Positions 21,308-64,000 of a stretch of DNA of 64,000 nucleotides are shown one piece after another; the stretch's first letter is position 1, and each line of letters opens with the position of its first letter. The notes below the pieces were generated by a model that saw only the letters and a program-made list of their open reading frames with translations, had not been told where the DNA came from and did no database searches. The DNA lies in NCBI GenBank assembly GCA_018806915.1, contig JAGKQI010000031.1:1411053-1475052 (forward strand), read 5' to 3'. The stretch comes from Phytophthora colocasiae. Lineage: Eukaryota > Oomycota > Peronosporomycetes > Peronosporales > Peronosporaceae. Made by a program: the position numbers and the translations under genes.

Positions 21308-21751
21308 CTACGAGCTGGCAACAGGGAGGCAGCGCGGCTCGTATCGAGCAGGGTCGATGGTACACGCCGTGCCATCAATGCACTTGAAGAGCGTGTAGAA
21401 CAAATAGCCTCCACATTTGGCGTTTAGCGGCAACGCATATTGCTTGCACCAGAAGAGCGGGCTGGAGTTCTGCGCCTCGCAACGATATCCAGAAATGCAC
21501 TTCAATTTTGTCGCGTTCCCGTCCGGCATTGGTCCGACCCAGTAGCGAGAGTAGTTAAAGCCCTCGCCACCGCACGCTTGAGCCCCAGACAACTCAGCGA
21601 TCTGGTAACCGGACTTCACAACACCTGCGTCATCAATTGCAGAAGCGCTCCCGCTTGACCCATTTTGCACTGCGCCCGACATGCTCGAAGTTACATGGTC
21701 GACTGCCAACACCGCCATCATTGCAGCTGCTGCTAGGCTTCTCTTCACCAT
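21308..21751 (-). CDS. Secreted protein with tandem CBM1-like modules, 147 residues
   Basis: The first in-frame ATG is at 21751 (the frame is open a little further but without ATG). The signal peptide is MVKRSLAAAAMMAVLAVDHV. After a Gly/Ser-rich linker come two four-Cys modules. Module 1 has Cys 60, 85, 91 and 102, beginning ACGGEGFNYSRYWVGP, with an enlarged loop between the first and second Cys. Module 2 has Cys 113, 124, 130 and 141 (AKCGGYLFYTLFKC). Both follow the CBM1 spacing, but several stacking aromatics are changed (FWC and EPRC instead of YYSQC). The same enlarged-loop module followed by a normal module ends the giant protein that starts its stop only 136 bp away, so the two genes are probably tandem paralogues. 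Upstream there is a TATAAAA-like element and a CTTCACTGCAGCTTT initiator-like motif on the minus strand. Confidence 0.85.
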   Translation of the reverse strand: MVKRSLAAAAMMAVLAVDHVTSSMSGAVQNGSSGSASAIDDAGVVKSGYQIAELSGAQACGGEGFNYSRYWVGPMPDGNATKLKCISGYRCEAQNSSPLFWCKQYALPLNAKCGGYLFYTLFKCIDGTACTIDPARYEPRCLPVASS

Positions 21752-21887: not shown

Positions 21888-24800
21888 TTACGCTTGTGGG
21901 ACGCATTGTGAGTACCAGTCGTTGGCAAACCTGCACTCAGAGCCTTCAATGCAGTTGGTCAGTCCGTGGTAGTCTACACCGCCACATTGACCCCACATCT
22001 CCACTGCTTGAGGGTTTACAACTGGCTGACACTGGAAATACCAGGGGTTTACCACCTCGCACGAATAACCAGGAGTGCAAGATAGTTTTGTAGACCAGTT
22101 CGCCGAGAGACCATCAGCGAAGTACTTAGCGTAGTCAAAGTTCAGACCACCGCACTGTTGCCAGCCTTCGACAGGAGCAACCTGGTTAAGAACTCCAGGA
22201 GCACTTGTTACAACCGGAGTATCTAGAAACGCTAATACATCCGTGCCAGCAGGAACGTCAGTGGCCGGAGCGTCGGTGGCCGGAGCGTCGGTGGCCGGAG
22301 CGTCCGTAGCAGCAGAGGCGCTGGACGTGGAAGCCGATGAAGCGGTCGACGGCACCGTGGCAGCAGGCGCGTCAGTGGCGTCATCCGTCGTGGTCGTCGT
22401 GGTCGAGGCGGGAGCGTCCGTGGTGGCGTCTGTGGCGACGGTCGCATCGGGGGTTAGTACGTCAGTGGCCGGAGCGTCGGTGGCCGGAGTGTCGGTGGCC
22501 GGAGCGTCCGTAGCAGCAGAGGCGCTGGACGTGGAAGCCGATGAAGCGGTCGACGGCACCGTGGCAGCAGGCGCGCCAGTGGCGTCATCCGTCGTGGTCG
22601 TCGTGGTCGAGGCGGGAGCGTCCGTGGTGGCATCTGTGGCGACGGTCGCGTCGGTGGCCGGAGTGTCGGTGGCCGGAGCGTCCGTAGCAGCAGAGGCGCT
22701 GGACGTGGAAGCCGATGAAGCGGTCGACGGCACCGTGGCAGCAGGCGCGTCAGTGGCGGCATCCGTCGTGGTCGTCGTGGTGGAGGCGGGAGCGTCCGTG
22801 GTGGCGTCTGTGGCGACGGTCGCGTCGAGGGTTAGTACGTCAGTGGCCGAAGCGTCGGTGGCCGGAGCGTCGGTGGCCGGAGCGTCGGTAGCAGCAGAGG
22901 CGCTGGACGTGGAAGCCGATGAAGCGGTCGATGGCACCGTGGCAGCAGGCGCGTCAGTGGCGTCATCCGTCGTGGTCGTCGTGGTCGAGGCGGGAGCGTC
23001 CGTGGTGGCGTCTGTGGCGACGGTCGCATCGGGGGTTAGTACGTCAGTGGCCGGAGCGTCGGTGGCCGGAGTGTCGGTGGCCGGAGCGTCGGTAGCAGCA
23101 GAGGCGCTGGACGTGGAAGCCGATGAAGCGGTCGACGGCACCGTGGCAGCAGGCGCGTCAGTGGCGTCATCCGTCGTGGTCGTCGTGGTCGAGGCGGGAG
23201 CGTCCGTGGTGGCATCTGTGGCGACGGTCGCGTCGGTGGCCGGAGTGTCGGTGGCCGGAGCGTCCGTAGCAGCAGAGGCGCTGGACGTGGAAGCCGATGA
23301 AGCGGTCGACGGCACCGTGGCAGCAGGCGCGTCAGTGGCGGCATCCGTCGTGGTCGTCGTGGTGGAGGCGGGAGCGTCCGTGGTGGCGTCTGTGGCGACG
23401 GTCGCATCGGGGGTTAGTACGTCAGTGGCCGAAGCGTCGGTGGCCGGAGTGTCGGTGGCCGGAGCGTCGGTAGCAGCAGAGGCGCTGGACGTGGAAGCCG
23501 GTGAAGCGGTCGACGGCACCGTGGCAGCAGGCGCGTCAGTGGCGTCATCCGTCGTGGTCGTCGTGGTCGAGGCGGGAGCGTCCGTGGTGGCATCTGTGGC
23601 GACGGTCGCGTCGGTGGCCGGAGTGTCGGTGGCCGGAGCGTCCGTAGCAGCAGAGGCGCTGGACGTGGAAGCCGATGAAGCGGTCGACGGCACCGTGGCA
23701 GCAGGCGCGTCAGTGGCGTCATCCGTCGTGGTCGTCGTGGTCGAGGCGGGAGCGTCCGTGGTGGCGTCTGTGGCGACGGTCGCATCGGGGGTTAGTACGT
23801 CAGTGGCCGGAGCGTCGGTGGCCGGAGTGTCGGTGGCCGGAGCGTCCGTAGCAGCAGAGGCGCTGGACGTGGAAGCCGATGAAGCGGTCGACGGCACCGT
23901 GGCAGCAGGCGCGCCAGTGGCGTCATCCGTCGTGGTCGTCGTGGTCGAGGCGGGAGCGTCCGTGGTGGCATCTGTGGCGACGGTCGCGTCGGTGGCCGGA
24001 GTGTCGGTGGCCGGAGCGTCCGTAGCAGCAGAGGCGCTGGACGTGGAAGCCGATGAAGCGGTCGACGGCACCGTGGCAGCAGGCGCGTCAGTGGCGGCAT
24101 CCGTCGTGGTCGTCGTGGTGGAGGCGGGAGCGTCCGTGGTGGCGTCTGTGGCGACGGTCGCGTCGAGGGTTAGTACGTCAGTGGCCGAAGCGTCGGTGGC
24201 CGGAGCGTCGGTGGCCGGAGCGTCCGTAGCAGCAGAGGCGCTGGACGTGGAAGCCGATGAAGCGGTCGATGGCACCGTGGCAGCAGGCGCGTCAGTGGCG
24301 TCATCCGTCGTGGTCGTCGTGGTCGAGGCGGGAGCGTCCGTGGTGGCGTCTGTGGCGACGGTCGCATCGGGGGTTAGTACGTCAGTGGCCGGAGCGTCGG
24401 TGGCCGGAGTGTCGGTGGCCGGAGCGTCCGTAGCAGCAGAGGCGCTGGACGTGGAAGCCGATGAAGCGGTCGATGGCACCGTGGCAGCAGGCGCGTCAGT
24501 GGCGTCATCCGTCGTGGTCGTCGTGGTCGAGGCGGGAGCGTCCGTGGTGGCATCTGTGGCGACGGTCGCGTCGGTGGCCGGAGTGTCGGTGGCCGGAGCG
24601 TCGGTAGCAGCAGAGGCGCTGGACGTGGAAGCCGATGAAGCGGTCGACGGCACCGTGGCAGCAGGCGCGTCAGTGGCGTCATCCGTCGTGGTCGTCGTGG
24701 TCGAGGCGGGAGCGTCCGTGGTGGCATCTGTGGCGACGGTCGCGTCGGTGGCCGGAGCGTCGGTGGCCGGAGCGTCGGTAGCAGCAGAGGCGCTGGACGT

Positions 24801-27800
24801 GGAAGCCGATGAAGCGGTCGACGGCACCGTGGCAGCAGGCGCGTCAGTGGCGTCATCCGTCGTGGTCGTCGTGGTCGAGGCGGGAGCGTCCGTGGTGGCG
24901 TCTGTGGCGACGGTCGCATCGGGGGTTAGTACGTCAGTGGCCGGAGCGTCGGTGGCCGGAGTGTCGGTGGCCGGAGCGTCGGTAGCAGCAGAGGCGCTGG
25001 ACGTGGAAGCCGATGAAGCGGTCGACGGCACCGTGGCAGCAGGCGCGGCAGTGGCGTCATCCGTCGTGGTCGTCGTGGTCGAGGCGGGAGCGTCCGTGGT
25101 GGCGTCTGTGGCGACGGTCGCATCGGGGGTTAGTACGTCAGTGGCCGGAGCGTCGGTGGCCGGAGTGTCGGTGGCCGGAGCGTCGGTAGCAGCAGAGGCG
25201 CTGGACGTGGAAGCCGATGAAGCGGTCGACGGCACCGTGGCAGCAGGCGCGGCAGTGGCGTCATCCGTCGTGGTCGTCGTGGTCGAGGCGGGAGCGTCCG
25301 TGGTGGCGTCTGTGGCGACGGTCGCATCGGGGGTTAGTACGTCAGTGGCCGGAGCGTCGGTGGCCGGGTGTCGGTGGCCGGAGCGTCCGTAGCAGCAGAG
25401 GCGCTGGACGTGGAAGCCGATGAAGCGGTCGATGGCACCGTGGCAGCAGGCGCGTCAGTGGCGTCATCCGTCGTGGTCGTCGTGGTCGAGGCGGGAGCGT
25501 CCGTGGTGGCATCTGTGGCGACGGTCGCGTCGGTGGCCGGAGTGTCGGTGGCCGGAGCGTCGGTAGCAGCAGAGGCGCTGGACGTGGAAGCCGATGAAGC
25601 GGTCGACGGCACCGTGGCAGCAGGCGCGTCAGTGGCGTCATCCGTCGTGGTCGTCGTGGTCGAGGCGGGAGCGTCCGTGGTGGCATCTGTGGCGACGGTC
25701 GCGTCGGTGGCCGGAGCGTCGGTGGCCGGAGCGTCGGTAGCAGCAGAGGCGCTGGACGTGGAAGCCGATGAAGCGGTCGACGGCACCGTGGCAGCAGGCG
25801 CGTCAGTGGCGTCATCCGTCGTGGTCGTCGTGGTCGAGGCGGGAGCGTCCGTGGTGGCGTCTGTGGCGACGTTCGCAACGTCAGGGGCCGGAGCGTCGGT
25901 GGCCGGAGTGTCGGTGGCCGGAGCGTCGGTAGCAGCAGAGGCGCTGGACGTGGAAGCCGATGAAGCGGTCGACGGCACCGTGGCAGCAGGCGCGGCAGTG
26001 GCGTCATCCGTCGTGGTCGTCGTGGTCGAGGCGGGAGCGTCCGTGGTGGCGTCTGTGGCGACGGTCGCATCGGGGGTTAGTACGTCAGTGGCCGGAGCGT
26101 CGGTGGCCGGAGTGTCGGTGGCCGGAGCGTCGGTAGCAGCAGAGGCGCTGGACGTGGAAGCCGATGAAGCGGTCGACGGCACCGTGGCAGCAGGCGCGTC
26201 AGTGGCGGCATCCGTCGTGGTCGTCGTGGTGGAGGCGGGAGCGTCCGTGGTGGCGTCTGTGGCGACGGTCGCATCGGGGGTTAGTACGTCAGTGGCCGAA
26301 GCGTCGGTGGCCGGAGTGTCGGTGGCCGGAGCGTCGGTAGCAGCAGAGGCGCTGGACGTGGAAGCCGATGAAGCGGTCGACGGCACCGTGGCAGCAGGCG
26401 CGTCAGTGGCGGCATCCGTCGTGGTCGTCGTGGTGGAGGCGGAGCGTCCGTGGTGGCGTCTGTGGCGACGGTCGCATCGGGGTTAGTACGTCAGTGGCCG
26501 GAAGCGTCGGTGGCCGGAGTGTCGGTGGCCGGAGCGTCCGTAGCAGCAGAGGCGCTGGACGTGGAAGCCGATGAAGCGGTCGACGGCACCGGGGCAGCAG
26601 GCGCGACGGATGAGAACACCGGAGGGGTCGTCGTGGGCGAGGCGGGAGCGTCCGTGGTGGCGTCGGTGGCGACGGTCGCATCGGGGTTAGTACGTCAGCG
26701 GCCGCAGCGTCGGTGGCCGGAGCGTCGGTGGCCGGAGCGTCCGCAGCCGCAGAGGCGCTGGCAGTGGAAGCCGATGAAGCGGTCGACGGCACCGTGGCAG
26801 CAGGCGCGTCAGTGGCGTCATCCGTCGTGGTCGTCGTGGTCGAGGCGGGAGCGTCCGTGGTGGCGTCTGTGGCGACGGTCGCATCGGGGTTAGTACGTCA
26901 GTGGCCGGAGCGTCGGTGGCCGGAGTGTCGGTGGCCGGAGCGTCCGTAGCAGCAGAGGCGCTGGACGTGGAAGCCGATGAAGCGGTCGAGGGCCCCGGGG
27001 CGGCCGGCGCGTCCGTGGCGGCATCCGTCGTGGTCGTCGTGGTCGAGGCGGGAGCGTCCGTGGTGGCATCTGTGGCGACGGTCGCATCGGGGTTAGTACG
27101 TCAGTGGCCGAAGCGTCGGTGGCCGGAGTGTCGGTGGCCGGAGTGTCGGTAGCAGCAGGCGCTGGACAGTGGCGGCATCCGTCGTGGTCGTCGTGGTCGA
27201 GGCAGGAGCGTCCGTGGTGGCGTCTGTGGCGACGGTCGCATCGGGGGTTAGTACGTCAGTGGCCGAAGCGTCGGTGGCCGGAGTGTCGGTGGCCGGAGCG
27301 TCGGTAGCAGCAGAGGCGCTGGACGTGGAAGCCGATGAAGCGGTCGACGGCACCGTGGCAGCAGGCGCGTCAGTGGCGTCATCCGTCGTGGTCGTCGTGG
27401 TCGAGGCAGGAGCGTCCGTGGTGGCGTCTGTGGCGACGGTCGCATCGGGGGTTAGTACGTCAGTGGCCGGAGCGTCGGTGGCCGGAGTGTCGGTGGCCGG
27501 AGCGTCCGTAGCAGCAGAGGCGCTGGACGTGGAAGCCGATGAAGCGGTCGACGGCACCGTGGCAGCAGGCGCGTCAGTGGCGGCATCCGTCGTGGTCGTC
27601 GTGGTCGAGGCGGGAGCGTCCGTGGTGGCGTCTGTGGCGACGGTCGCATCGGGGTTAGTACGTCAGTGGCCGAAGCGTCGGTGGCCGGAGTGTCGGTGGC
27701 CGGAGCGTCGGTAGCAGCAGAGGCGCTGGACGTGGAAGCCGATGAAGCGGTCGACGGCACCGTGGCAGCAGGCGCGTCAGTGGCGGCATCCGTCGTGGTC

Positions 27801-30800
27801 GTCGTGGTCGAGGCGGGAGCGTCCGTGGTGGCGTCTGTGGCGACGGTCGCATCGGGGGTTAGTACGTCAGTGGCCGAAGCGTCGGTGGCCGGAGTGTTGG
27901 TGGCCGGAGCGTCGGTAGCAGCAGAGGCGCTGGACGTGGAAGCCGATGAAGCGGTCGACGGCACCGTGGCAGCAGGCGCGTCAGTGGCGTCATCCGTCGT
28001 GGTCGTCGTGGTCGAGGCAGGAGCGTCCGTGGTGGCGTCTGTGGCGACGGTCGCATCGGGGGTTAGTACGTCAGTGGCCGGAGCGTCGGTGGCCGGAGTG
28101 TCGGTGGCCGGAGCGTCGGTAGCAGCAGAGGCGCTGGACGTGGAAGCCGATGAAGCGGTCGACGGCACCGTGGCAGCAGGCGCGTCAGTGGCGGCATCCG
28201 TCGTGGTCGTCGTGGTGGAGGCGGGAGCGTCCGTGGTGGCGTCTGTGGCGACGGTCGCGTCGAGGGTTAGTACGTCAGTGGCCGAAGCGTCGGTGGCCGG
28301 AGCGTCGGTGGCCGGAGCGTCGGTAGCAGCAGAGGCGCTGGACGTGGAAGCCGATGAAGCGGTCGATGGCACCGTGGCAGCAGGCGCGTCAGTGGCGTCA
28401 TCCGTCGTGGTCGTCGTGGTCGAGGCGGGAGCGTCCGTGGTGGCATCTGTGGCGACGGTCGCATCGGGGTTAGTACGTCAGTGGCCGGAGCGTCGGTGGC
28501 CGGAGTGTCGGTGGCCGGAGCGTCCGTAGCAGCAGAGGCGCTGGACGTGGAAGCCGATGAAGCGGTCGACGGCACCGTGGCAGCAGGCGCGTCAGTGGCG
28601 GCATCCGTCGTGGTCGTCGTGGTGGAGGCGGGAGCGTCCGTGGTGGCGTCTGTGGCGACGGTCGCATCGGGGGTTAGTACGTCAGTGGCCGAAGCGTCGG
28701 TGGCCGGAGTGTAGGTGGCCGGAGCGTCGGTAGCAGCAGAGGCGCTGGACGTGGAAGCCGGTGAAGCGGTCGACGGCACCGTGGCAGCAGGCGCGTCAGT
28801 GGCGTCATCCGTCGTGGTCGTCGTGGTCGAGGCGGGAGCGTCCGTGGTGGCATCTGTGGCGACGGTCGCGTCGGTGGCCGGAGTGTCGGTGGCCGGAGCG
28901 TCCGTAGCAGCAGAGGCGCTGGACGTGGAAGCCGATGAAGCGGTCGACGGCACCGTGGCAGCAGGCGCGTCAGTGGCGTCATCCGTCGTGGTCGTCGTGG
29001 TCGAGGCGGGAGCGTCCGTGGTGGCGTCTGTGGCGACGGTCGCATCGGGGGTTAGTACGTCAGTGGCCGGAGCGTCGGTGGCCGGAGTGTCGGTGGCCGG
29101 ATCGTCGGTAGCAGCAGAGGCGCTGGACGTGGAAGCCGATGAAGCGGTCGACGGCACCGTGGCAGCAGGCGCGTCAGTGGCGGCATCCGTCGTGGTCGTC
29201 GTGGTCGAGGCGGGAGCGTCCGTGGTGGCGTATGTGGCGACGGTCGCATAGGGCGGAAGTACGTCAGTGGCCGGAGCGTCGGTGGCCGGAGTGTCGGTGG
29301 CCGGAGCGTCCGTAGCAGCAGAGGCGCTGGACGTGGAAGCCGATGAAGCGGTCGATGGCACCGTGGCAGCAGGCGCGTCAGTGGCGGCATCCGTCGTGGT
29401 CGTCGTGGTCGAGGCGGGAGCGTCCGTGGTGGCGTCTGTGGCGACGGTCGCATCGGGGGAACGAACGTCAGTGGCCGAAGCGTCGGTGGCCGGAGTGTCG
29501 GTGGCCGGAGCGTCCGTAGCAGCAGAGGCGCTGGACGTGGAAGCCGATGAAGCGGTCGAAGGCACCGTGGCAGCAGGCCCGTCGGAGGCGACTAGCGTCG
29601 GGGTCGTGGTGGTGGAGGCGGGAGCGTCGGGGGTGGCGTCTGTGGCGACGGTCGCATCGGGGTTAGTACGTCAGTGGCCGAAGCGTCGGTGGCCGGAGTG
29701 TTGGTGGCCGGAGCGTCGGTAGCAGCAGAGGCGCTGGACGTGGAAGCCGATGAAGCGGTCGACGGCACCGTGGCAGCAGGCGCGTCAGTGGCGGCATCCG
29801 TCGTGGTCGTCGTGGTCGAGGCAGGAGCGTCCGTGGTGGCGTCTGTGGCGACGGTCGCATCGGGGGTTAGTACGTCAGTGGCCGAAGCGTCGGTGGCCGG
29901 AGTGTCGGTGGCCGGAGCGTCGGTAGCAGCAGAGGCGCTGGACGTGGAAGCCGATGAAGCGGTCGACGGCACCGTGGCAGCAGGCGCGTCAGTGGCGTCA
30001 TCCGTCGTGGTCGTCATGGTCGAGGCAGGAGCGTCCGTGGTGGCGTCTGTGGCGACGGTCGCATCGGGGGTTAGTACGTCAGTGGCCGGAGCGTCGGTGG
30101 CCGGAGTGTCGGTGGCCGGAGCGTCGGTAGCAGCAGAGGCGCTGGACGTGGAAGCCGATGAAGCGGTCGACGGCACCGTGGCAGCAGGCGCGTCAGTGGC
30201 GTCATCCGTCGTGGTCGTCGTGGTCGAGGCGGGAGCGTCCGTGGTGGCGTCTGTGGCGACGGTCGCATCGGGGGTTAGTACGTCAGTGGCCGGAGCGTCG
30301 GTGGCCGGAGTGTCGGTGGCCGGAGCGTCCGTAGCAGCAGAGGCGCTGGACGTGGAAGCCGATGAAGCGGTCGACGGCACCGTGGCAGCAGGCGCGTCAG
30401 TGGCGGCATCCGTCGTGGTCGTCGTGGTCGAGGCGGGAGCGTCCGTGGTGGCGTCTGTGGCGACGGTCGCATCGGGGTTAGTACGTCAGTGGCCGAAGCG
30501 TCGGTGGCCGGAGTGTTGGTGGCCGGAGCGTCGGTAGCAGCAGAGGCGCTGGACGTGGAAGCCGATGAAGCGGTCGACGGCACCGTGGCAGCAGGCGCGT
30601 CAGTGGCGGCATCCGTCGTGGTCGTCGTGGTCGAGGCGGGAGCGTCCGTGGTGGCGTCTGTGGCGACGGTCGCATCGGGGTTAGTACGTCAGTGGCCGAA
30701 GCGTCGGTGGCCGGAGTGTTGGTGGCCGGAGCGTCGGTAGCAGCAGAGGCGCTGGACGTGGAAGCCGATGAAGCGGTCGACGGCACCGTGGCAGCAGGCG

Positions 30801-33800
30801 CGTCAGTGGCGTCATCCGTCGTGGTCGTCGTGGTCGAGGCAGGAGCGTCCGTGGTGGCGTCTGTGGCGACGGTCGCATCGGGGGTTAGTACGTCAGTGGC
30901 CGAAGCGTCGGTGGCCGGAGTGTCGGTGGCCGGAGCGTCCGTAGCAGCAGAGGCGCTGGACGTGGAAGCCGATGAAGCGGTCGACGGCACCGTGGCAGCA
31001 GGCGCGTCAGTGGCGGCATCCGTCGTGGTCGACGTGGTCGAGGCGGGAGCGTCCGTGGTGGCATCTGTGGCGACGGTCGCGTCGGTGGCCGGAGTGTCGG
31101 TGGCCGGAGCGTCCGTAGCAGCAGAGGCGCTGGACGTGGAAGCCGATGAAGCGGTCGACGGCACCGTGGCAGCAGGCGCGTCAGTGGCGTCATCCGTCGT
31201 GGTCGTCGTGGTCGAGGCGGGAGCGTCCGTGGTGGCGTCTGTGGCGACGGTCGCTTCGGGGGTGTGTTCGTCTGTGGCCGGAGCGTCGGTGGCCGGAGTG
31301 TCGGTGGCCGGAGCGTCGGTAGCAGCAGAGGCGCTGGACGTGGAAGCCGATGAAGCGGTCGATGGCACCGTGGCAGCAGGCGCGTCAGTGGCGTCATCCG
31401 TCGTGGTCGTCGTGGTCGAGGCGGGAGCGTCCGTGGTGGCATCTGTGGCGACGGTCGCGTCGGTGGCCGGAGCGTCGGTGGCCGGAGCGTCGGTAGCAGC
31501 AGAGGCGCTGGACGTGGAAGCCGATGAAGCGGTCGACGGCACCGTGGCAGCAGGCGCGTCAGTGGCGTCATCCGTCGTGGTCGTCGTGGTCGAGGCGGGA
31601 GCGTCCGTGGTGGCGTCTGTGGCGACGGTCGCATCGGGGGTTAGTACGTCAGTGGCCGGAGCGTCGGTGGCCGGAGTGTCGGTGGCCGGAGCGTCGGTAG
31701 CAGCAGAGGCGCTGGACGTGGAAGCCGATGAAGCGGTCGACGGCACCGTGGCAGCAGGCGCGGCAGTGGCGTCATCCGTCGTGGTCGTCGTGGTCGAGGC
31801 GGGAGCGTCCGTGGTGGCGTCTGTGGCGACGGTCGCATCGGGGGTTAGTACGTCAGTGGCCGGAGCGTCGGTGGCCGGAGTGTCGGTGGCCGGAGCGTCC
31901 GTAGCAGCAGAGGCGCTGGACGTGGAAGCCGATGAAGCGGTCAACGGCACCGTGGCAGCAGGCGCGTCAGTGGCGTCATCCGTCGTGGTCGTCGTGGTCG
32001 AGGCGGGAGCGTCCGTGGTGGCGTCTGTGGCGACGGTCGCATCGGTGGCCGGAGCTTCGGTGGCCGGAGCGTCGGTAGCAGCAGAGGCGCTGGACGTGGA
32101 AGCCGATGAAGCGGTCGATGGCACCGTGGCAGCAGGCGCGTCAGTGGCGTCATCCGTCGTGGTCGTCGTGGTCGAGGCGGGAGCGTCCGTGGTGGCGTCT
32201 GTGGCGACGGTCGCATCGGGGTTAGTACGTCAGGGGCCGAAGCGTCGGTGGCCGGAGTGTCGGTGGCCGGAGCGTCCGTAGCAGCAGAGGCGCTGGACGT
32301 GGAAGCCGATGAAGCGGTCGACGGCACCGTGGCAGCAGGCGCGTCAGTGGCGTCATCCGTCGTGGTCGTCGTGGTCGAGGCGGGAGCGTCCGTGGTGGCG
32401 TCTGTGGCGACGGTCGCAGCGTCGGTGGCCGGAGTGTCGGTGGCCGGAGCGTCGGTAGCAGCAGAGGCGCTGGACGTGGAAGCCGATGAAGCGGTCGACG
32501 GCACCGTGGCAGCAGGCGCGTCAGTGGCGGCATCCGTCGTGGTCGTCGTGGTGGAGGCGGGAGCGTCCGTGGTGGCGTCTGTGGCGACGGTCGCATCGGG
32601 GGTTAGTACGTCAGTGGCCGGAGCGTCGGTGGCCGGAGTGTCGGTGGCCGGAGCGTCCGTAGCAGCAGAGGCGCTGGACGTGGAAGCCGATGAAGCGGTC
32701 GACGGCACCGTGGCAGCAGGCGCGTCAGTGGCGGCATCCGTCGTGGTCGTCGTGGTCGAGGCAGGAGCGTCCGTGGTGGCGTCTGTGGCGACGGTCGCAT
32801 CGGGGGTTAGTACGTCAGTGGCCGGAGCGTCGGTGGCCGGAGTGTCGGTGGCCGGATCGTCGGTAGCAGCAGAGGCGCTGGACGTGGAAGCCGATGAAGC
32901 GGTCGACGGCACCGTGGCAGCAGGCGCGTCAGTGGCGGCATCCGTCGTGGTCGTCGTGGTCGAGGCGGGAGCGTCCGTGGTGGCGTCTGTGGCGACGGTC
33001 GCATCGGGTTAGTACGTCAGTGGCCGAAGCGTCGGTGGCCGGAGTGTCGGTGGCCGGAGCGTCGGTAGCAGCAGAGGCGCTGGACGTGGAAGCCGATGAA
33101 GCGGTCGACGGCACCGTGGCAGCAGGCGCGTCAGTGGCGGCATCCGTCGTGGTCGTCGTGGTCGAGGCGGGAGCTACGGTGGGGGCGACTGTGTCGACGG
33201 TCGCATATGGGTGTAGTACGTAAGTGGCCGGAGCGTCGGTGGCCGGAGTGTCGGTGGCCGGAGCGTCCGTAGCAGCAGAGGCGCTGGACGTGGAAGCCGA
33301 TGAAGCGGTCGACGGCACCGTGGCAGCAGGCGCGTCAGTGGCGTCATCCGTCGTGGTCGTCGTGGTCGAGGCAGGAGCGTCCGTGGTGGCGTCTGTGGCG
33401 ACGGTCGCATCGGGGGTTAGTACGTCAGTGGCCGAAGCGTCGGTGGCCGGAGTGTCGGTGGCCGGAGCGTCCGTAGCAGCAGAGGCGCTGGACGTGGAAG
33501 CCGATGAAGCGGTCGACGGCACCGTGGCAGCAGGCGCGTCAGTGGCGGCATCCGTCGTTGTCGTCGTGGTGGAGGCGGGAGCGTCCGTGGTGGCGTCTGT
33601 GGCGACGGTCGCATCGGGGGTTAGTACGTCAGTGGCCGGAGCGTCGGTGGCCGGAGTGTCGGTGGCCGGATCGTCGGTAGCAGCAGAGGCGCTGGACGTG
33701 GAAGCCGATGAAGCGGTCGACGGCACCGTGGCAGCAGGCGCGTCAGTGGCGGCATCCGTCGTGGTCGTCGTGGTGGAGACGGGAGCGTCCGTGGTGGCGT

Positions 33801-54800: not shown

Positions 54801-57800
54801 GGGAGCGTCCGTGGTGGCGTCTGTGGCGACGGTCGCATCGGGGGTTAGTACGTCAGTGGCCGGAGCGTCGGTGGCCGGAGTGTCGGTGGCCGGAGCGTCC
54901 GTAGCAGCAGAGGCGCTGGACGTGGAAGCCGATGAAGCGGTCGACGGCACCGTGGCAGCAGGCGCGTCAGTGGCGGCATCCGTCGTGGTCGTCGTGGTCG
55001 AGGCGGGAGCGTCCGTGGTGGCGTCTGTGGCGACGGTCGCATCGGGGTTAGTACGTCAGTGGCCGGAGCGTCGGTGGCCGGAGTGTCGGTGGCCGGAGCG
55101 TCGGTAGCAGCAGAGGCGCTGGACGTGGAAGCCGATGAAGCGGTCGACGGCACCGTGGCAGCAGGCGCGTCAGTGGCGGCATCCGTCGTGGTCGTCGTGG
55201 TCGAGGCAGGAGCGTCCGTGGTGGCGTCTGTGGCGACGGTCGCATCGGGGTTAGTACGTCAGTGGCCGGAGCGTCGGTGGCCGGAGTGTCGGTGGCCGGA
55301 GCGTCCGTAGCAGCAGAGGCGCTGGACGTGGAAGCCGATGAAGCGGTCGACGGCACCGTGGCAGCAGGCGCGTCAGTGGCGGCATCCGTCGTGGTCGTCG
55401 TGGTCGAGGCAGGAGCGTCCGTGGTGGCGTCTGTGGCGACGGTCGCATCGGGGTTAGTACGTCAGTGGCCGGAGCGTCGGTGGCCGGAGTGTCGGTGGCC
55501 GGAGCGTCCGTAGCAGCAGAGGCGCTGGACGTGGAAGCCGATGAAGCGGTCGACGGCACCGTGGCAGCAGGCGCGTCAGTGGCGGCATCCGTCGTGGTCG
55601 TCGTGGTCGAGGCGGGAGCGTCCGTGGTGGCATCTGTGGCGACGGTCGCGTCGGTGGCCGGAGCGTCGGTGGCCGGAGCGTCGGTAGCAGCAGAGGCGCT
55701 GGACGTGGAAGCCGATGAAGCGGTCGACGGCACCGTGGCAGCAGGCGCGTCGGTGGCGGCATCCGTCGTGGTCGTCGTGGTCGAGGCGGGAGCGTCCGTG
55801 GTGGCGTCTGTGGCGACGGTCGCATCGGGGGTTAGTACGTCAGTGGCCGGAGCGTCGGTGGCCGGAGTGTCGGTGGCCGGATCGTCGGTAGCAGCAGAGG
55901 CGCTGGACGTGGAAGCCGATGAAGCGGTCGACGGCACCGTGGCAGCAGGCGCGTCAGTGGCGTCATCCGTCGTGGTCGTCGTGGTCGAGGCAGGAGCGTC
56001 CGTGGTGGCGTCTGTGGCGACGGTCGCATCGGGGGTTAGTACGTCAGTGGCCGGAGCGTCGGTGGCCGGAGTGTCGGTGGCCGGAGCGTCCGTAGCAGCA
56101 GAGGCGCTGGACGTGGAAGCCGATGAAGCGGTCGACGGCACCGTGGCAGCAGGCGCGTCAGTGGCGTCATCCGTCGTGGTCGTCGTGGTCGAGGCAGGAG
56201 CGTCCGTGGTGGCGTCTGTGGCGACGGTCGCATCGGGGGTTAGTACGTCAGTGGCCGGAGCGTCGGTGGCCGGAGTGTCGGTGGCCGGAGCGTCCGTAGC
56301 AGCAGAGGCGCTGGACGTGGAAGCCGATGAAGCGGTCGACGGCACCGTGGCAGCAGGCGCGTCAGTGGCGGCATCCGTCGTGGTCGTCGTGGTCGAGGCG
56401 GGAGCGTCCGTGGTGGCGTCTGTGGCGACGGTCGCATCGGGGGTTAGTACGTCAGTGGCCGAAGCGTCGGTGGCCGGAGTGTCGGTGGCCGGAGCGTCCG
56501 TAGCAGCAGAGGCGCTGGACGTGGAAGCCGATGAAGCGGTCGACGGCACCGTGGCAGCAGGCGCGTCAGTGGCGTCATCCGTCGTGGTCGTCGTGGTCGA
56601 GGCGGGAGCGTCCGTGGTGGCGTCTGTGGCGACGGTCGCATCGGGGTTAGTACGTCAGTGGCCGGGCGTCGGTGGCCGGAGTGTCGGTGGCCGGAGCGTC
56701 CGTAGCAGCAGAGGCGCTGGACGTGGAAGCCGATGAAGCGGTCGACGGCACCGTGGCAGCAGGCGCGTCAGTGGCGTCATCCGTCGTGGTCGTCGTGGTC
56801 GAGGCGGGAGCGTCCGTGGTGGCGTCTGTGGCGACGGTCGCATCGGGGTTAGTACGTCAGTGGCCGAAGCGTCGGTGGCCGGAGTGTCGGTGGCCGGAGC
56901 GTCCGTAGCAGCAGAGGCGCTGGACGTGGAAGCCGATGAAGCGGTCGACGGCACCGTGGCAGCAGGCGCGTCAGTGGCGGCATCCGTCGTGGTCGTCGTG
57001 GTCGAGGCGGGAGCGTCCGTGGTGGCGTCTGTGGCGACGGTCGCATCGGGGGTTAGTACGTCAGTGGCCGGAGCGTCGGTGGCCGGAGTGTCGGTGGCCG
57101 GAGCGTCCGTAGCAGCAGAGGCGCTGGACGTGGAAGCCGATGAAGCGGTCGACGGCACCGTGGCAGCAGGCGCGTCAGTGGCGGCATCCGTCGTGGTCGT
57201 CGTGGTCGAGGCAGGAGCGTCCGTGGTGGCGTCTGTGGCGACGGTCGCATCGAGTTAGTACGTCAGTGGCCGAGGCGTCGGTGGCCGGAGTGTCGGTGGC
57301 CGGAGCGTCGGTAGCAGAGGCGCTGGACGTGGAAGCCGATGAAGCGGTCGACGGCACCGTGGCAGCAGGCGCGTCAGTGGCGTCATCCGTCGTGGTCGTC
57401 GTGGTCGAGGCGGGAGCGTCCGTGGTGGCGTCTGTGGCGACGGTCGCATCGTCAGTGGCCGAAGCGTCGGTGGCCGGAGCGTACGTAGCAGCAGAGGCGC
57501 TGGACGTGGAAGCCGATGAAGCGGTCGACGGCACCGTGGCAGCAGGCGCGTCAGTGGCGGCATCCGTCGTGGTCGTCGTGGTCGAGGCGGGAGCGTCCGT
57601 GGTGGCGTCTGTGGCGACGGTCGCATCGGGGGTTAGTACGTCAGTGGCCGGAGCGTCGGTGGCCGGAGTGTCGGTGGCCGGAGCGTCGGTAGCAGCAGAG
57701 GCGCTGGACGTGGAAGCCGATGAAGCGGTCGACGGCACCGTGGCAGCAGGCGCGTCAGTGGCGTCATCCGTCGTGGTCGTCGTGGTCGAGGCGGGAGCGT

Positions 57801-60800
57801 CCGTGGTGGCGTCTGTGGCGACGGTCGCATCGGGGTTAGTACGTCAGTGGCCGAAGCGTCGGTGGCCGGAGTGTCGGTGGCCGGAGCGTCCGTAGCAGCA
57901 GAGGCGCTGGACGTGGAAGCCGATGAAGCGGTCGACGGCACCGTGGCAGCAGGCGCGTCAGTGGCGGCATCCGTCGTGGTCGTCGTGGTCGAGGCGGGAG
58001 CGTCCGTGGTGGCGTCTGTGGCGACGGTCGCATCGGGGTTAGTACGTCAGTGGCCGAAGCGTCGGTGGCCGGAGTGTCGGTGGCCGGAGCGTCCGTAGCA
58101 GCAGAGGCGCTGGACGTGGAAGCCGATGAAGCGGTCGACGGCACCGTGGCAGCAGGCGCGTCAGTGGCGGCATCCGTCGTGGTCGTCGTGGTCGAGGCGG
58201 GAGCGTCCGTGGTGGCGTCTGTGGCGACGGTCGCATCGGGGTTAGTACGTCAGTGGCCGGAGCGTCGGTGGCCGGAGTGTCGGTGGCCGGAGCGTCCGTA
58301 GCAGCAGAGGCGCTGGACGTGGAAGCCGATGAAGCGGTCGACGGCACCGTGGCAGCAGGCGCGTCGGTGGCGGCATCCGTCGTGGTCGTCGTGGTCGAGG
58401 CGGGAGCGTCCGTGGCTGCGTCTGTGGCGACGTTCGCATCGGGGTCTAGTTCGTGATTTGCCGTAGCGTCGGTGGCCGGAGTGTCGGTGGCCGGAGCGTC
58501 CGTAGCAGCAGAGGCGCTGGACGTGGAAGCCGATGAAGCGGTCGACGGCACCGTGGCAGCAGGCGCGTCAGTGGCGGCATCCGTCGTGGTCGTCGTGGTC
58601 GAGGCGGGAGCGTCCGTGGTGGCGTCTGTGGCGACGGTCGCATCAGGGGTTAGTACGTCAGTGGCCGAAGCGTCGGTGGCCGGAGTGTCGGTGGCCGGAG
58701 CGTCCGGTAGCAGCAGAGGCGCTGGACGTGGAAGCCGCTGAAGCGGTCGACGGCACCGTGGCAGCAGGCGCGTCGGTGGCGGCATCCGTCGTGGTCGTCG
58801 TGGTCGAGGCGGGAGCGTCCGTGGTGGCGTCTGTGGCGACGGTCGCATCGGGGTTGAAGTACGTCAGTGGCCGTAGTGTCGGTGGCCGGAGTGTCGGTGG
58901 CCGGAGCGTCGGTAGCAGCAGGCGCTGGACGTGGAAGCCGATGAAGCGGTCGACGGCACCGTGGCAGCAGGCGCGTCAGTGGCGGCATCCGTCGTGGTCG
59001 TCGTGGTCGAGGCAGGAGCGTCCGTGGTGGCGTCTGTGGCGACGGTCGCATCGGGGTTAGTACGTCAGTGGCCGGAGCGTCGGTGGCCGGAGTGTCGGTG
59101 GCCGGAGCGTCCGTAGCAGCAGAGGCGCTGGACGTGGAAGCCGATGAAGCGGTCGACGGCACCGTGGCAGCAGGCGCGTCAGTGGCGTCATCCGTCGTGG
59201 TCGTCGTGGTCGAGGCGGGAGCGTCCGTGGTGGCGTCTGTGGCGACGGTCGCATCGGGGTTAGTACGTCAGTGGCCGGAGCGTCGGTGGCCGGAGTGTCG
59301 GTGGCCGGAGCGTCCGTAGCAGCAGAGGCGCTGGACGTGGAAGCCGATGAAGCGGTCGACGGCACCGTGGCAGCAGGCGCGTCAGTGGCGGCATCCGTCG
59401 TGGTCGTCGTGGTCGAGGCGGGAGCGTCCGTGGTGGCGTCTGTGGCGACGGTCGCATCGGGGGTTCGTACGTCAGCTCCCGTAGCGACGTTGTCCTGTGT
59501 GTCGCTGTCCGGAGCGTCCGTAGCAGCAGAGGCGCTGGACGTGGAAGCCGATGAAGCGGTCGACGGCACCGTGGCAGCAGGCGCGTCGAGTGGCGGCATC
59601 CGTCGTGGTCGTCGTGGTCGAGGCGGGAGCGTCCGTGGTGGCGTCTGTGGCGACGGTCGCATCGGGGGTTAGTACGTCAGTGGCCGAAGCGTCGGTGGCC
59701 GGAGTGTCGGTGGCCGGAGCGTCGGTAGCAGCAGAGGCGCTGGACGTGGAAGCCGATGAAGCGGTCGACGGCACCGTGGCAGCAGGCGCGTCAGTGGCGG
59801 CATCCGTCGTGGTCGTCGTGGTCGAGGCGGGAGCGTCCGTGGTGGCGTCTGTGGCGACGGTCGCATCGGGGGTTAGTACGTCAGTGGCCGGAGCGTCGGT
59901 GGCCGGGTGTCGGTGGCCGGAGCGTCCGTAGCAGCAGAGGCGCTGGACGTGAAGCCGATGAAGCGGTCGACGGCACCGTGGCAGCAGGCGCGTCAGTGGC
60001 GTCAGCCTTCGTGGTTGTCGTGGTCGTTGGTGGTGCGTGCGGGGTGGCGTCTGTGGCGACGGTCGCATCGGGGGTTAGTACGTCAGTGGCCGGAGCGTCG
60101 GTGGCCGGAGTGTCGGTGGCCGGAGCGTCCGTAGCAGCAGAGGCGCTGGACGTGGAAGCCGATGAAGCGGTCGACGGCACCGTGGCAGCAGGCGCGTCAG
60201 TGGCGTCATCCGTCGTGGTCGTCGTGGTCGAGGCGGGAGCGTCCGTGGTGGCGTCTGTGGCGACGGTAGCATCGTGGTTTACTACCGCAGTGGCCGCAGC
60301 GTCTGTGGCCGGAGTCCGGGTGGCCGGAGCGTCGGTAGCAGCAGAGGCGCTGGACGTGGAAGCCGATGAAGCGGTCGACGGCACCGTGGCAGCAGGCGCG
60401 TCAGTGGCGGCATCCGTCGTGGTCGTCGTGGTCGAGGCGGGAGCGTCCGTGGTGGCGTCTGTGGCGACGGTCGCATCGGGGTTAGTACGTCAGTGGCCGA
60501 AGCGTCGGTGGCCGGAGTGTCGGTGGCCGGAGCGTCGGTAGCAGCAGAGGCGCTGGACGTGGAAGCCGATGAAGCGGTCGACGGCACCGTGGCAGCAGGC
60601 GCGTCAGTGGCGTCATCCGTCGTGGTCGTCGTGGTCGAGGCAGGAGCGTCCGTGGTGGCGTCTGTGGCGACGGTCGCATCGAAGGGTTAGTACGTCAGTG
60701 GCCGGAGCGTCGGTGGCCGGAGTGTCGGTGGCCGGAGCGTCCGTAGCAGCAGAGGCGCTGGACGTGGAAGCCGATGAAGCGGTCGACGGCACCGTGGCAG

Positions 60801-63800
60801 CAGGCGCGTCAGTGGCGGCATCCGTCGTGGTCGTCGTGGTCGAGGCGGGAGCGTCCGTGGTGGCGTCTGTGGCGACGGTCGCATCGGGGTTAGTACGTCA
60901 GTGGCCGAAGCGTCGGTGGCCGGAGTGTCGGTGGCCGGAGCGTCCGTAGCAGCAGAGGCGCTGGACGTGGAAGCCGATGAAGCGGTCGACGGCACCGTGG
61001 CAGCAGGCGCGTCAGTGGCGGCATCCGTCGTGGTCGTCGTGGTCGAGGCGGGAGCGTCCGTGGTGGCGTCTGTGGCGACGGTCGCATCGGGGTTAGTACG
61101 TCAGTGGCCGGAGCGTCGGTGGCCGGAGTGTCGGTGGCCGGAGCGTCGGTAGCAGCAGAGGCGCTGGACGTGGAAGCCGATGAAGCGGTCGACGGCACCG
61201 TGGCAGCAGGCGCGTCAGTGGCGGCATCCGTCGTGGTCGTCGTGGTCGAGGCGGGAGCGTCCGTGGTGGCGTCTGTGGCGACGGTCGCATCGGGGGTTAG
61301 TACGTCAGTGGCCGGAGCGTCGGTGGCCGGAGTGTCGGTGGCCGGAGCGTCGGTAGCAGCAGAGGCGCTGGACGTGGAAGCCGATGAAGCGGTCGACGGC
61401 ACCGTGGCAGCAGGCGCGTCAGTGGCGTCATCCGTCGTGGTCGTCGTGGTCGAGGCGGGAGCGTCCGTGGTGGCGTCTGTGGCGACGGTCGCATCGGGGG
61501 TTAGTACGTCAGTGGCCGGAGCGTCGGTGGCCGGAGTGTCGGTGGCCGGAGCGTCCGTAGCAGCAGAGGCGCTGGACGTGGAAGCCGATGAAGCGGTCGA
61601 CGGCACCGTGGCAGCAGGCGCGTCAGTGGCGGCATCCGTCGTGGTCGTCGTGGTCGAGGCAGGAGCGTCCGTGGTGGCGTCTGTGGCGACGGTCGCATCG
61701 GGGGTTAGTACGTCAGTGGCCGAAGCGTCGGTGGCCGGAGTGTCGGTGGCCGGAGCGTCCGTAGCTGATTAGGGTGCGGTGGTGTAAGCCGATGAAGCGG
61801 TCGACGGCACCGTGGCAGCAGGCGCGTCAGTGGCGTCATCCGTCGTGGTCGTCGTGGTCGAGGCGGGAGCGTCCGTGGTGGCGTCTGTGGCGACGGTCGC
61901 ATCAGGGGGTTAGTACGTCAGTGGCGGAGCGGCTCGGTGGCCGGGGTGTCGGTGGCCGGAGCGTCCGTAGCAGCAACAGAGGCGCTGGACGTGAAGCCGA
62001 TGAAGCGGTCGGACAGCACCGCAGCAGGCGCGGCGATGGCGTCAGTGCAGGTCGGTAGTGGTCGTGGATCCGTCGTGGTCGTCGTCGTGGCGAAGCGTCG
62101 GTCGTCCGTGGTGGCGTTCTGGCGACGGTCGCATCGGGGGGTTAGTACGTCAGTGGCCGGAGCGTCGGTGGCCGGAGTGTCGGTGGCCGGAGCGTCCGTA
62201 GCAGCAGAGGGCGCTGGACGTGGAAGCCGATGAAGCGGTCGACGGCACCGTGGCAGCAGGCGCGTCAGTGGCGGCATCCGTCGTGGTCGTCGTGGTCGAG
62301 GCGGGAGCGTCCGTGGTGGCGTCTGTGGCGACGGTCGCATCAGGGGTTAGTACGTCAGTGGCCCGAAGCGTCGGTGGCCGGAGTGTCGGTGGCCGGAGCG
62401 TCCGTAGCAGCAGAGGCGCTGGACGAGGAAGCCGAGGAAGCGGTCGACGGCACCGAGGCAGCAGGCGCGTCAGAGGCGGCATCCGGCGTGGTCGTCGTGG
62501 TCGAGGCGGGAGCGTCCGTGGTGGCGTCTGTGGCGACGGTCGCATCGGGGTTAGTACGTCAGTGGCCGGAGCGTCGGTGGCCCGGAGTGTCGGTGGCCGG
62601 AGCGTCCGTAGCAGCAGAGGCGCTGGACGTGGAAGCCGATGAAGCGGTCGACGGCACCGTGGCAGCAGGCGCGTCAGTGGCGGCATCCGTCGTGGTCGTC
62701 GTGGTCGAGGCGGAGCGTCCGTGGTGGCGTCTGTGGCGACGGTCGCATCGGGGTTAGTACGTCAGTGGCCGGAGCGTCGGTGGCCGGAGTGTCGGTGGCC
62801 GGAGCGTCCGGTAGCAAGAGGCGCTGGACGTGGAAGCCGATGAAGCGGTCGAGCGGCACCGTGGCAGCAGGCGCGTCAGTGGCGGCATCCGTCGTGGTCG
62901 TCGTGGTCGAGGCGGGAGCGTCCGTGGTGGCGTCTGTGGCGACGGTCGCATCGGGGTTAGTACGTCAGTGGCCGGAGCGTCGGTGGCCGGGTGTCGGTGG
63001 CCGGAGCGTCGGTAGCAGCAGAGGCGCTGGACGTGGAAGCCGATGAAGCGGTCGACGGCACCGTGGCAGCAGGCGCGTCAGTGGCGTCATCCGTCGTGGT
63101 CGTCGTGGTCGAGGCGGGAGCGTCCGTGGTGGCGTCTGTGGCGACGGTCGCATCGGGGTTAGTACGTCCGTGGCCGGAGCGTCGGTGGCCGGAGTGTCGG
63201 TGGCCGGAGCGGCCGGAGCTGCAGAGGCGCTGGACGTGGAAGCCGATGAAGCGGTCGACGGCACCGTGGCAGCAGGCGCGTCAGTGGCGTCATCCGTCGT
63301 GGTCGTCGTGGTCGAGGCGGGAGCGTCCGTGGTGGCGTCTGTGGCGACGGTCGCATCGGGGGTTAGTACGTCAGTGGCCGAAGCGTCGGTGGCCGGAGTG
63401 TCGGTGGCCGGAGCGTCCGTAGCAGCAGAGGCGCTGGACGTGGAAGCCGATGAAGCGGTCGACGGCACCGTGGCAGCGGCAGGCGCGTCAGTGGCGGCAT
63501 CCGTCGTGGTCGTCGTGGTCGGGCGGAGCGTCCGTGGTGGCGTCTGTGGCGACGGTCGCATCGGGGTTAGTACGTCAGTGGCCGGAGCGTCGGTGGCCCG
63601 GGTGTCGGTGGCCGGAGCGTCCGGTAGCAGCAGAGGCGCTGGACGTGGAAGCCGATGAAGCGGTCGGCGGCACCGTGGCAGCAGGCGCGTCAGTGGCGGC
63701 ATCCGTCGTGGTCGTCGTGGTCGAGGCGGGAGCGTCCGTGGTGGCGTCTGTGGCGACGGTCGCATCGGGGTTAGTACGTCAGTGGCCGGATGCGTCGGTG

Positions 63801-64000
63801 GCCGGAGTGTCGGTGGCCGGGCGTCCGTAGCAGCAGAGGCGCTGGACGTGGAAGCCGATGAAGCGGTCGACGGCACCGTGGCAGCAGGCGCGTCAGTGGC
63901 GTCATCCGTCGTGGCCGTCGTGGTCGAGGCGGGAGCGTCGTGGTGGCATCGTGGCGTGGTCGCGTCGGTGGCCGTGAAGTGGTCGATGGCCGGAGCGTCC
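21888..64000 (-). CDS. Giant secreted Thr/Ala-rich stalk protein ending in tandem CBM1, 5' end outside window
   Basis: The stop TAA is at 21888. The C-terminal 95 residues are two cellulose-binding modules; everything upstream to the window edge is a repeated stalk of 68- and 58-residue units containing PATDAPATD, VLTPDATVATDATTDAPAS, TTTTTTDDATDAPAATVPS and TASSASTSSASA. The stalk is acidic, rich in Thr/Ser/Ala/Pro, has no Cys and should be heavily O-glycosylated. Known secreted relatives suggest cell wall or cellulose attachment (inference). The start and signal peptide are beyond 64,000, since the repeat contains no ATG in this frame. The frame is open from 21888 to about 25365 and again in long blocks (for example about 38,690-41,840), but single-base indels break it repeatedly, often at the same sites. 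Any shift leads into an Arg/Pro frame that stops at the next long hinge. Either the assembly has indel errors or the gene is dead. Confidence 0.6.
21891..22172 (-). other. Tandem CBM1 modules at the C-terminus of the giant protein
   Basis: Module A (about 22172-22030): GWQQCGGLNFDYAKYFADG, then KLSCTPGYSCEVVNPWYFQC, with an enlarged loop between Cys 1 and Cys 2. Module B (about 22005-21891): MWGQCGGVDYHGLTNCIEG, SECRFANDWYSQCVP, a near-canonical CBM1 with W, Y and WYSQC aromatics intact. Four cysteines each, expected two disulfides. Module B is the best candidate in the window for real cellulose binding. Confidence 0.85.
22448..24740 (-). repeat. Higher-order duplication within the array, offset 1,338 bp
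   Basis: A run of hinges long-short-long(variant)-long-short beginning at 22448 recurs at 23786. A private variant GCGCCAGTGG (22572 and 23910) and the GTCGAGGGTTAG hinge (about 22826 and 24164) are shared at the same 1,338-bp offset, which equals four 204-bp plus three 174-bp units. After about 950 bp the two copies diverge in unit order. Confidence 0.75.
38307..39060 (-). repeat. Tandem duplication of a 378-bp dimer carrying the same indel
   Basis: GTGGCCGGGTGTCGG (an A missing relative to GGAGTG) occurs at about 38307 and 38685, exactly 378 bp (204+174) apart. Each is followed by the rare variant GTCGACGTGGTCGAGG (about 38415 and 38793) and a short hinge. The second copy additionally lacks a G in GACGTGAAGCC. 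Confidence 0.7.
61750..64000 (-). repeat. Degenerate right end of the array in this window
   Basis: Unlike the rest, units here carry many indels and substitutions: TAGCTGATTAGGGTGCGG (about 61763), a scrambled unit at 61985-62130, extra or missing bases in most hinges, and an aberrant final unit at 63930-64000. The stalk frame is broken in nearly every unit. Confidence 0.7.

Follow-up and report, generated by a model that had tools for sequence, protein, structure and literature searches.

What kind of gene gives rise to a minisatellite of more than 41 kb that runs into a tandem cellulose-binding module at one end and into a contig end at the other, and how far does its product extend? We addressed this question in a window of 64,000 nucleotides (C31:1411053-1475052) from the 92.5-Mb, 105-contig genome of Phytophthora colocasiae; contig C31 ends at window base 64000. 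The features of the window on which the argument turns are the following:

22248 to 64000, minus strand: repeat array with a putative linker- or stalk-coding role; 206 units, mostly 204 or 174 bp; truncated by the contig end and frame-broken as assembled.
21888 to 22247, minus strand: unique C-terminal tail, including the stop codon; one match in the genome.
22026 to 22163, minus strand: first CBM1 module, with an extra loop inserted and limits estimated from the alignment, recognized by Pfam CBM_1, by conserved C and W columns, and by model strands 31-33, 61-67, and 70-75.
21900 to 21998, minus strand: second CBM1 module, which aligns to Trichoderma CBM1s and is recognized by Pfam CBM_1 and by the model.
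21888 to 25454, minus strand: longest open part of the repeat frame that leads into CBM1; 1,188 aa, after which the frame breaks.

The tandem array that the initial annotation had proposed was recovered at ~22248-64000, with its coding sense on the minus strand, as 206 units between 207 anchors, the latter being located with up to two edits. The anchor spacings (n = 206; some possibly off by one) were 204 (114), 203 (38), 174 (22), 205 (9), and 202 (7), with 16 others, and cutting yielded 109 units of exactly 204 bp, 21 of exactly 174 bp, and 144 different unit sequences. The minus-strand unit sequence is SASTSSASAATDAPATDTPATDAPATDVLTPDATVATDATTDAPASTTTTTTDDATDAPAATVPSTAS (SASTSSASAATDAPATD...STAS), and the 174-bp form contains 10 codons fewer than the 204-bp form. 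Among the 40 units closest to the unique flanks (20 on C31 and 20 on contig C78, described below), mean identity was 98.0%, with a minimum of 94.5%. The unit comprises 41% S/T and 10% P, contains no K or R, and carries a net charge of about -10.5; the array thereby displays the mucin-type trait of a long S/T/P-rich tandem repeat. Odd unit lengths (e.g., 411, 358, and 231) occur at the noisy contig ends. Units of 68 or 58 codons, near-identical and in phase with CBM1, had been described at the outset; the 204/174-bp lengths hold for most units and the repeat passes in frame into the tail, whereas the frame itself breaks past 1,188 aa.

The tail into which the minus-strand repeat passes contains two CBM1 matches. 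A Pfam scan of P0001 returned CBM_1 (PF00734) in two stretches at 54.5 bits, compared with a curated cut-off of 20.6, and alignment of the second module with 4bmf and 1cbh revealed the CBM1 pattern of cysteines and aromatic residues. Moreover, an AlphaFold model of the tail (8 sequences) comprises two small three-stranded modules; the best of five models reached a pLDDT of 72.7 (moderate confidence), the others 44.8-62.5, and superposition of 1cbh on the tail model gave 0.7 A for 36 columns, with a TM of 0.93 by target. The tail is thus modeled to fold as CBM1, with cellulose binding as the predicted activity.

We then asked where else in the genome the repeat is found. A pattern search allowing up to three mismatches returned 197 reverse and 133 forward matches, of which the 197 lie on the minus strand of the window and the 133 in the final 70 kb of contig C78. 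Because these two sets account for every unit match, there are none elsewhere in the genome. The C78 locus can be described as follows:

C78:427541-455478: putative 5' half of the gene; ATG, hydrophobic leader, and head, followed by the repeat up to the contig end.

An in-frame stop stands 9 bases upstream of the ATG at 427541, and the array begins ~390 bases past this ATG and ends with the contig at 455478 (138 anchors). The head (MTKLRVVVGFAAAATAMIVIAQDMTAQHLRSNEETRML...), whose hydrophobic stretch scores 2.38 in an 11-residue Kyte-Doolittle window, joins the repeat in a frame identical to that at the tail. Across the 92.5 Mb, the head and the tail each have a single match.

To relate the two halves to each other, we turned to proteins of other species. 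Our tail search retrieved three proteins from 14 candidates, and each of them holds both the C78 head and the C31 tail; the head matched these three at 35-39% identity (E 1e-22 to 3e-20, searched without low-complexity filter or composition correction) and the tail at 57-68% identity, so that parts residing on two contigs here are joined in the orthologs. A profile search extended this set to at least 10 proteins, and in 7 of the 10 listed the head is accompanied by a complete or partial tail. The whole layout of head, linker, and tail is present in P0003, P0004, P0005, and P0008, and a head with an incomplete or run-on tail in P0006, P0007, and P0010; P0009 is a tail-only fragment, P0011 a CBM1 relative without the head, and P0012 a weak match. 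PHYPSEUDO_001851 (P. pseudosyringae), JG687_00002204 (P. cactorum), and JG688_00002863 (P. aleatoria) share the leader, the xHLR head, the S/T/A/P-rich linker, and the tandem CBM1 tail, as do proteins from P. lilii, P. fragariaefolia, and P. infestans (PInf_018325). All seven head-bearing proteins are small (254-536 aa), and the linkers of the six measured orthologs span 93-296 residues, compared with at least 13,900 repeat codons here; among 70 candidates of 654-2,079 aa, no relative was found at E ≤ 0.001.

The xHLR motif lies near the start in 7 of 7 heads examined (P0006 was left out) and is preceded by a strongly hydrophobic stretch in 6 of these 7; the P. infestans model seems to be without its first residues. 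We also considered an RXLR effector and rejected this assignment, as all 7 heads examined begin the motif with Q, D, or E rather than Arg and the Pfam scans returned no RXLR family.

Since the leader, head, linker type, and tail are common to both, we regard the locus as orthologous to these small Phytophthora CBM1 proteins, and in its architecture it corresponds, as judged from sequence, to a known small protein whose linker has become extreme. The single head and tail matches, the confinement of unit matches to two contig ends, and the short-linker orthologs together indicate that the linker of one gene has expanded, and they argue strongly for C78 and C31 as two halves of this one gene, split by the assembler inside the repeat. 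The acidic, S/T-rich, and probably secreted Phytophthora product with a C-terminal tandem CBM1 that had been envisaged at the outset is thus supported by the ortholog head, the linker composition, and the tail.

With both halves in hand, the array amounts to 41,754 bases on C31 and 27,549 on C78, that is, 69,303 bases or 23,101 codons. An extent of more than 41 kb, as originally stated, is indeed present in the window, but the window is incomplete, as 27.5 kb more of the array plus the gene start lie on C78. The proposed stalk of over 13,900 residues corresponds to 13,918 repeat codons on C31 and may be an underestimate (~23,100 codons with C78), but both figures presuppose a correct assembly and an open frame, and the frame is broken as assembled. 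We treat 13,918 as the safer lower figure, because a short overlap could escape notice in the noisy ends and because of possible differences between haplotypes. To compare the two contigs, each unit was given a barcode of nine variable sites plus unit length, which resolved 83 types among 343 units and revealed the array to be a mosaic. No suffix-prefix overlap of the C31 and C78 ends exceeded shuffled barcodes, in a test that recovered all artificial overlaps of 5, 8, and 20 units; the best local match between the contigs comprised 5 units (score 21.0, compared with a maximum of 16.5 in 20 shuffles) and lies away from the ends. The expanded linker spans at least 41.8 kb, and probably ~69 kb (~23,100 codons, if the contig ends do not overlap).

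Whether this linker can be translated throughout depends on its frame. The initial annotation held that all regular unit lengths are multiples of three and that the main frame is free of stops, neither of which is borne out by the assembly: of the 206 C31 spacings, 143 divide by three and 63 do not (38 of these 63 being 203), and the frame continuous with CBM1 breaks after the stretch listed above, while the frame from the head on C78 is open for 774 aa. Frame-broken units number 77 of 206 on C31 and 91 of 137 on C78, cutting jitter included. Their distribution is uneven, in that frame-breaking indels affect 1 of the 20 C31 units beside the tail versus 16 of 20 at the contig end (Fisher p 2e-6), and 6 of the 20 C78 units beside the head versus 19 of 20 at the contig end (p 4e-5). 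Further, a single CCCCC run, which occupies 5 of 204 bases, accounts for 60 of 79 one-base deletions in the 283 core units (30 contig-end units omitted per contig). Because the frameshifts rise to the contig ends and concentrate in this run, we suggest uncorrected read errors, and the frameshifts are probably for the most part homopolymer errors left where short reads cannot polish. Loss of a C from this run (C5 loss) showed no association with any of nine SNP sites on each contig (18 tests, smallest p 0.13), and within the 20 units closest to the tail, all 11 long ones are free of such a loss. Sharing of C5 loss by adjacent units did exceed shuffles (21 vs. 13.2, p 0.004; 24 vs. 17.8, p 0.016), although the frameshift gradient alone would yield part of this clustering. 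The fifths of the arrays next to the flanks already show such losses (8/35 and 6/24); given the clustering and the presence near the flanks, part of the C5 losses may be real.

A stop-free frame had also been taken as a sign of past selection for coding. We rejected it as proof of coding, since the opposite strand has one open frame in both the 204- and 174-bp units, and plus-strand stop-to-stop frames of 1,085 and 1,162 aa are present. Substitutions between units gave no significant synonymous excess: 12 of 26 common alleles were synonymous versus 31% expected (p = 0.07), a stricter allele cut gave 6 of 13 (p = 0.20), the 40 clean flank-side units gave 8 of 28, and the opposite open frame produced an equal count of 12 of 26. 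These counts do not demonstrate purifying selection or sequence constraint between units; at most, frame and composition are maintained. The case for coding derives instead from the junctions at head and tail and from the orthologs.

The repeat resembles the ortholog linkers. Aligned with the P. infestans linker, the unit scored 237, compared with a maximum of 172 in 300 shuffles, indicating a likeness beyond composition; for the P0003, P0005, and P0008 linkers, 0 of 300 shuffles reached the score, and for P0004 and P0007, which are less clear, 2 and 1 of 300 did, so that no shuffle reached the score in 4 of 6 ortholog linkers. P. infestans P0010 contains two copies of a longer linker repeat, as seen by reading and alignment (self-BLAST did not report a repeat). 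Within the array, neighboring units agree slightly better than shuffled ones (0.704 vs. 0.684, sd 0.008; 0.748 vs. 0.724, sd 0.009), and units 186-198 and 191-205, near the C31 tail, form a duplicated block (score 29.6 vs. 15.0 in a single shuffle), both of which fit local slippage or unequal exchange. Recurrent indels of at least 6 bp measure 30, 30, and 15 bp; single ones include 7, 10, and 13, which are not multiples of three.

Several other readings of the locus were weighed against a single split gene with an expanded linker. Many of the frameshifts could be real, in which case a genuine locus has become a runaway minisatellite that yields a shortened repeat protein lacking CBM1, or else is a pseudogene. 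The assembled frames that end after 774 aa (head) and 1,188 aa (tail), the clustered C5 losses near the flanks (8/35 and 6/24), and the lack of a significant synonymous excess all point this way, but the sharp climb of frame-breaking toward the contig ends, the independence of C5 loss from every SNP allele, the intact run in all 11 long units out of the 20 beside the tail, and the conservation of the unique tail with orthologs do not; we consider this reading unlikely, yet worth keeping in mind. Assemblers often misjudge tandem arrays, and this tendency, along with the noisy contig ends and their unit lengths of 411, 358, and 231, speaks for an array that is real but inflated or chimeric in length, or for contigs that are haplotypes of differing length, such that the true repeat falls far below 69 kb. 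The mosaic of 83 barcode types in 343 units, the absent suffix-prefix overlap, and a best inter-contig match of merely 5 units away from the ends render this improbable.

Two further readings concern the unity and the sense of the gene. As C78 and C31 are separate contigs that the assembly leaves unjoined, they might belong to two separate genes that each contain an array; with one head and one tail in 92.5 Mb, both facing open contig ends in compatible orientation, and with orthologs that carry head and tail on one protein, we give this very little credence. It appears just as far-fetched that the opposite strand of the array is the one read, or that the array is noncoding, and that its link to CBM1 is accidental. 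The opposite frame, open in both unit forms and with an equal synonymous count of 12 of 26, is compatible with such a view, but the minus-strand frame alone continues into the conserved leader and head and into CBM1, and it resembles the orthologous linkers.

The split ortholog gene thus remains the explanation that we believe to be probably correct, with a hugely expanded linker, a frame that is mostly or fully open, and an acidic, mucin-like, cellulose-tethered polymer as its product. The ancestral form would have been a small secreted protein with a hydrophobic leader, an xHLR head, an S/T/A/P-rich linker, and a C-terminal tandem CBM1, in which the 204/174-bp unit multiplied through slippage or unequal exchange into a linker of at least 41.8 kb, probably ~69 kb; the assembler would then have failed to cross the repeat, leaving the gene split over two contig ends, while the actual frame is probably uninterrupted over most of the array or its whole length. 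In the predicted product, the CBM1 pair would tether the polymer to cellulose of the organism's own wall or of the plant's, and the stalk, anionic and probably glycosylated, could function as an extended, hydrated brush, as a spacer, or as an adhesin. By analogy, the C-terminal pair would provide the hold on cellulose, with the stalk projecting from it. The array, its two halves, the orthology, and the CBM1 modules are shown by the sequence; that the frame is intact is inferred, as are secretion, glycosylation, location in the wall, and function, and a functional giant protein would be plausible. In its fullest form, the proposal is an uninterrupted gene with a coding repeat of at least ~69 kb, whose product, secreted, of mucin type, and anchored by CBM1, comprises ~23,000 or more residues, acts as a very long wall brush or tether, has its length set by repeat turnover, and descends within one genus from an ancestor a few hundred residues long; this we put forward as a possibility that falls somewhat short of probable. 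The computed ~23,000-residue product would have a mass of ~2.2 MDa before sugars, ~9,500 Ser/Thr, and a net charge of about -3,500.

Parts of this design have counterparts in known systems. P. infestans possesses CBM1 proteins without a catalytic domain, and its CBD1 is described as embedded in the hyphal wall (PMC3160888); CBEL is described as acting in adhesion to cellulose and in wall deposition (PMC4617103; PMC3532174). Both resemble the predicted product in being secreted, noncatalytic, and CBM1-bearing, with two CBM1 in CBEL (PMC3160888; PMC3532174; PMC4617103), whereas CBD1 is a 13-kD protein with one CBM1 and CBEL contains PAN/Apple domains, neither being described there with a repeat stalk. 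Membership in CBEL was rejected for our locus, as PAN/Apple was absent from the Pfam scan (P0001, CBM_1 alone; P0002, nothing). Human MUC16, described as the largest mucin at ~22,000 aa (PMC5039420), would be a likeness in working principle, namely a very long S/T-rich tandem-repeat polymer, with no homology claimed; it differs in its 156-aa repeat with SEA domains and in its membrane anchor. PnLpv, a zoospore vesicle glycoprotein of P. nicotianae above 400 kDa that is retained in vesicles (PMC3869178), is likewise a very large Phytophthora glycoprotein, likened here by description, and the excerpt of that source mentions no CBM1 for it. In yeast, intragenic tandem repeat expansion in the wall glycoprotein HPF1 alters cell-surface behavior (PMC7263189), which is again a likeness of mechanism (intragenic repeat growth in a wall glycoprotein), with no homology claimed. 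Among the open-licence papers listed by our searches, no published giant CBM1 or mucin protein of such a kind appeared, which is weak evidence of absence. The Car proteins of P. infestans cysts are mucin-like, with S/T-rich tandem octapeptide repeats, and are not known to carry CBM1; by this description they share with our locus the S/T-rich tandem repeats of a Phytophthora surface protein.

If intact, the product would, to our knowledge, be the largest secreted protein of an oomycete, and in any organism few secreted proteins would rival it in size. At roughly 14,000 to 23,000 residues it would fall within the range of the largest animal mucin, and at ~23,000 or more it would match or exceed MUC16. 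The linker of a surface protein would then have grown ~fifty-fold or more within one genus (at least 13,918 codons, compared with 93-296 residues in six orthologs), and the short-form relatives would offer a natural test of the effect of stalk length on wall structure and adhesion. If intact, the locus would also show how giant genes stay hidden, the gene here being probably the cause of two contig ends.

Finally, we examined the surroundings of the two halves. A search for the oomycete core promoter motif in 10 kb, allowing up to three mismatches to the consensus, gave 19 matches versus 11.0 expected (4 of 200 shuffles reached 19); we place no weight on the match upstream of the ATG, because it has three mismatches. 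Two genes lie downstream of the tail:

21308 to 21751, minus strand: downstream neighbor, a 147-aa protein with degenerate CBM1-like repeats (CBM_1 at 16.4 bits, below the 20.6 cut-off); 83% identity over 103 aa to P0010 426-528.
19741 to 20151, minus strand: second downstream neighbor, a 136-aa protein with one CBM1; layout like that of P. infestans CBD1 by published description, without alignment.

The P. infestans P0010 model runs on into the homolog of the 21308-21751 gene, and the gene order is therefore common to P. infestans and the window. At least 11 CBM1 matches were found genome-wide, of which at least 8 are on C31 and C78, and CBM1 genes flank the contig break on both sides.

The N-terminal part (head) of the putative giant linker-tandem-CBM1 protein, encoded at the end of contig C78, carries an xHLR-x4-x-R-x-L motif (L026:2541-2660; C78:427541-427660), which was kept in all seven heads examined. 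This motif is reminiscent of an RXLR-dEER leader, but differs from it in having Q, D, or E at the first residue. In the public gene model of the P. infestans ortholog, PInf_018325 (P0010), the protein's own leader seems to be absent, and the ortholog appears to be fused with the homolog of the downstream neighbour (window 21308-21751, minus strand).

Elsewhere on C78, two genes are duplicated in inverted orientation at C78:397712-402589 (L023:2712-7589), namely:

Within C78:397712-402589, gene 1: apparently secreted protein of 328 and 334 aa, in which an APTEAPT-type linker is combined with a CBM1 tail
Within C78:397712-402589, gene 2: protein with 'DRFL' repeats, 268 aa

The 328- and 334-aa proteins are laid out like the giant protein, but their stalk is short. 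Several CBM1 modules also occur in a 241-aa secreted-looking protein (C78:413917-414642; L024:8917-9642), which, as judged by eye, resembles P. fragariae P0011, a CBM1 relative without the giant protein's head; a second CBM1 frame immediately adjoins this locus.

The window itself contains two further features:

12300-14660, minus strand: secreted-looking protein, 786 aa
7211-7316: short 23-bp tandem repeat, ∼4 copies

The 786-aa protein contains 'STLDDVT.TVG' repeats and a hydrophobic stretch close to its C-terminus, and it matched the Apolipoprotein profile with an E-value of 7.7e-14, yet below Pfam's cut-off.
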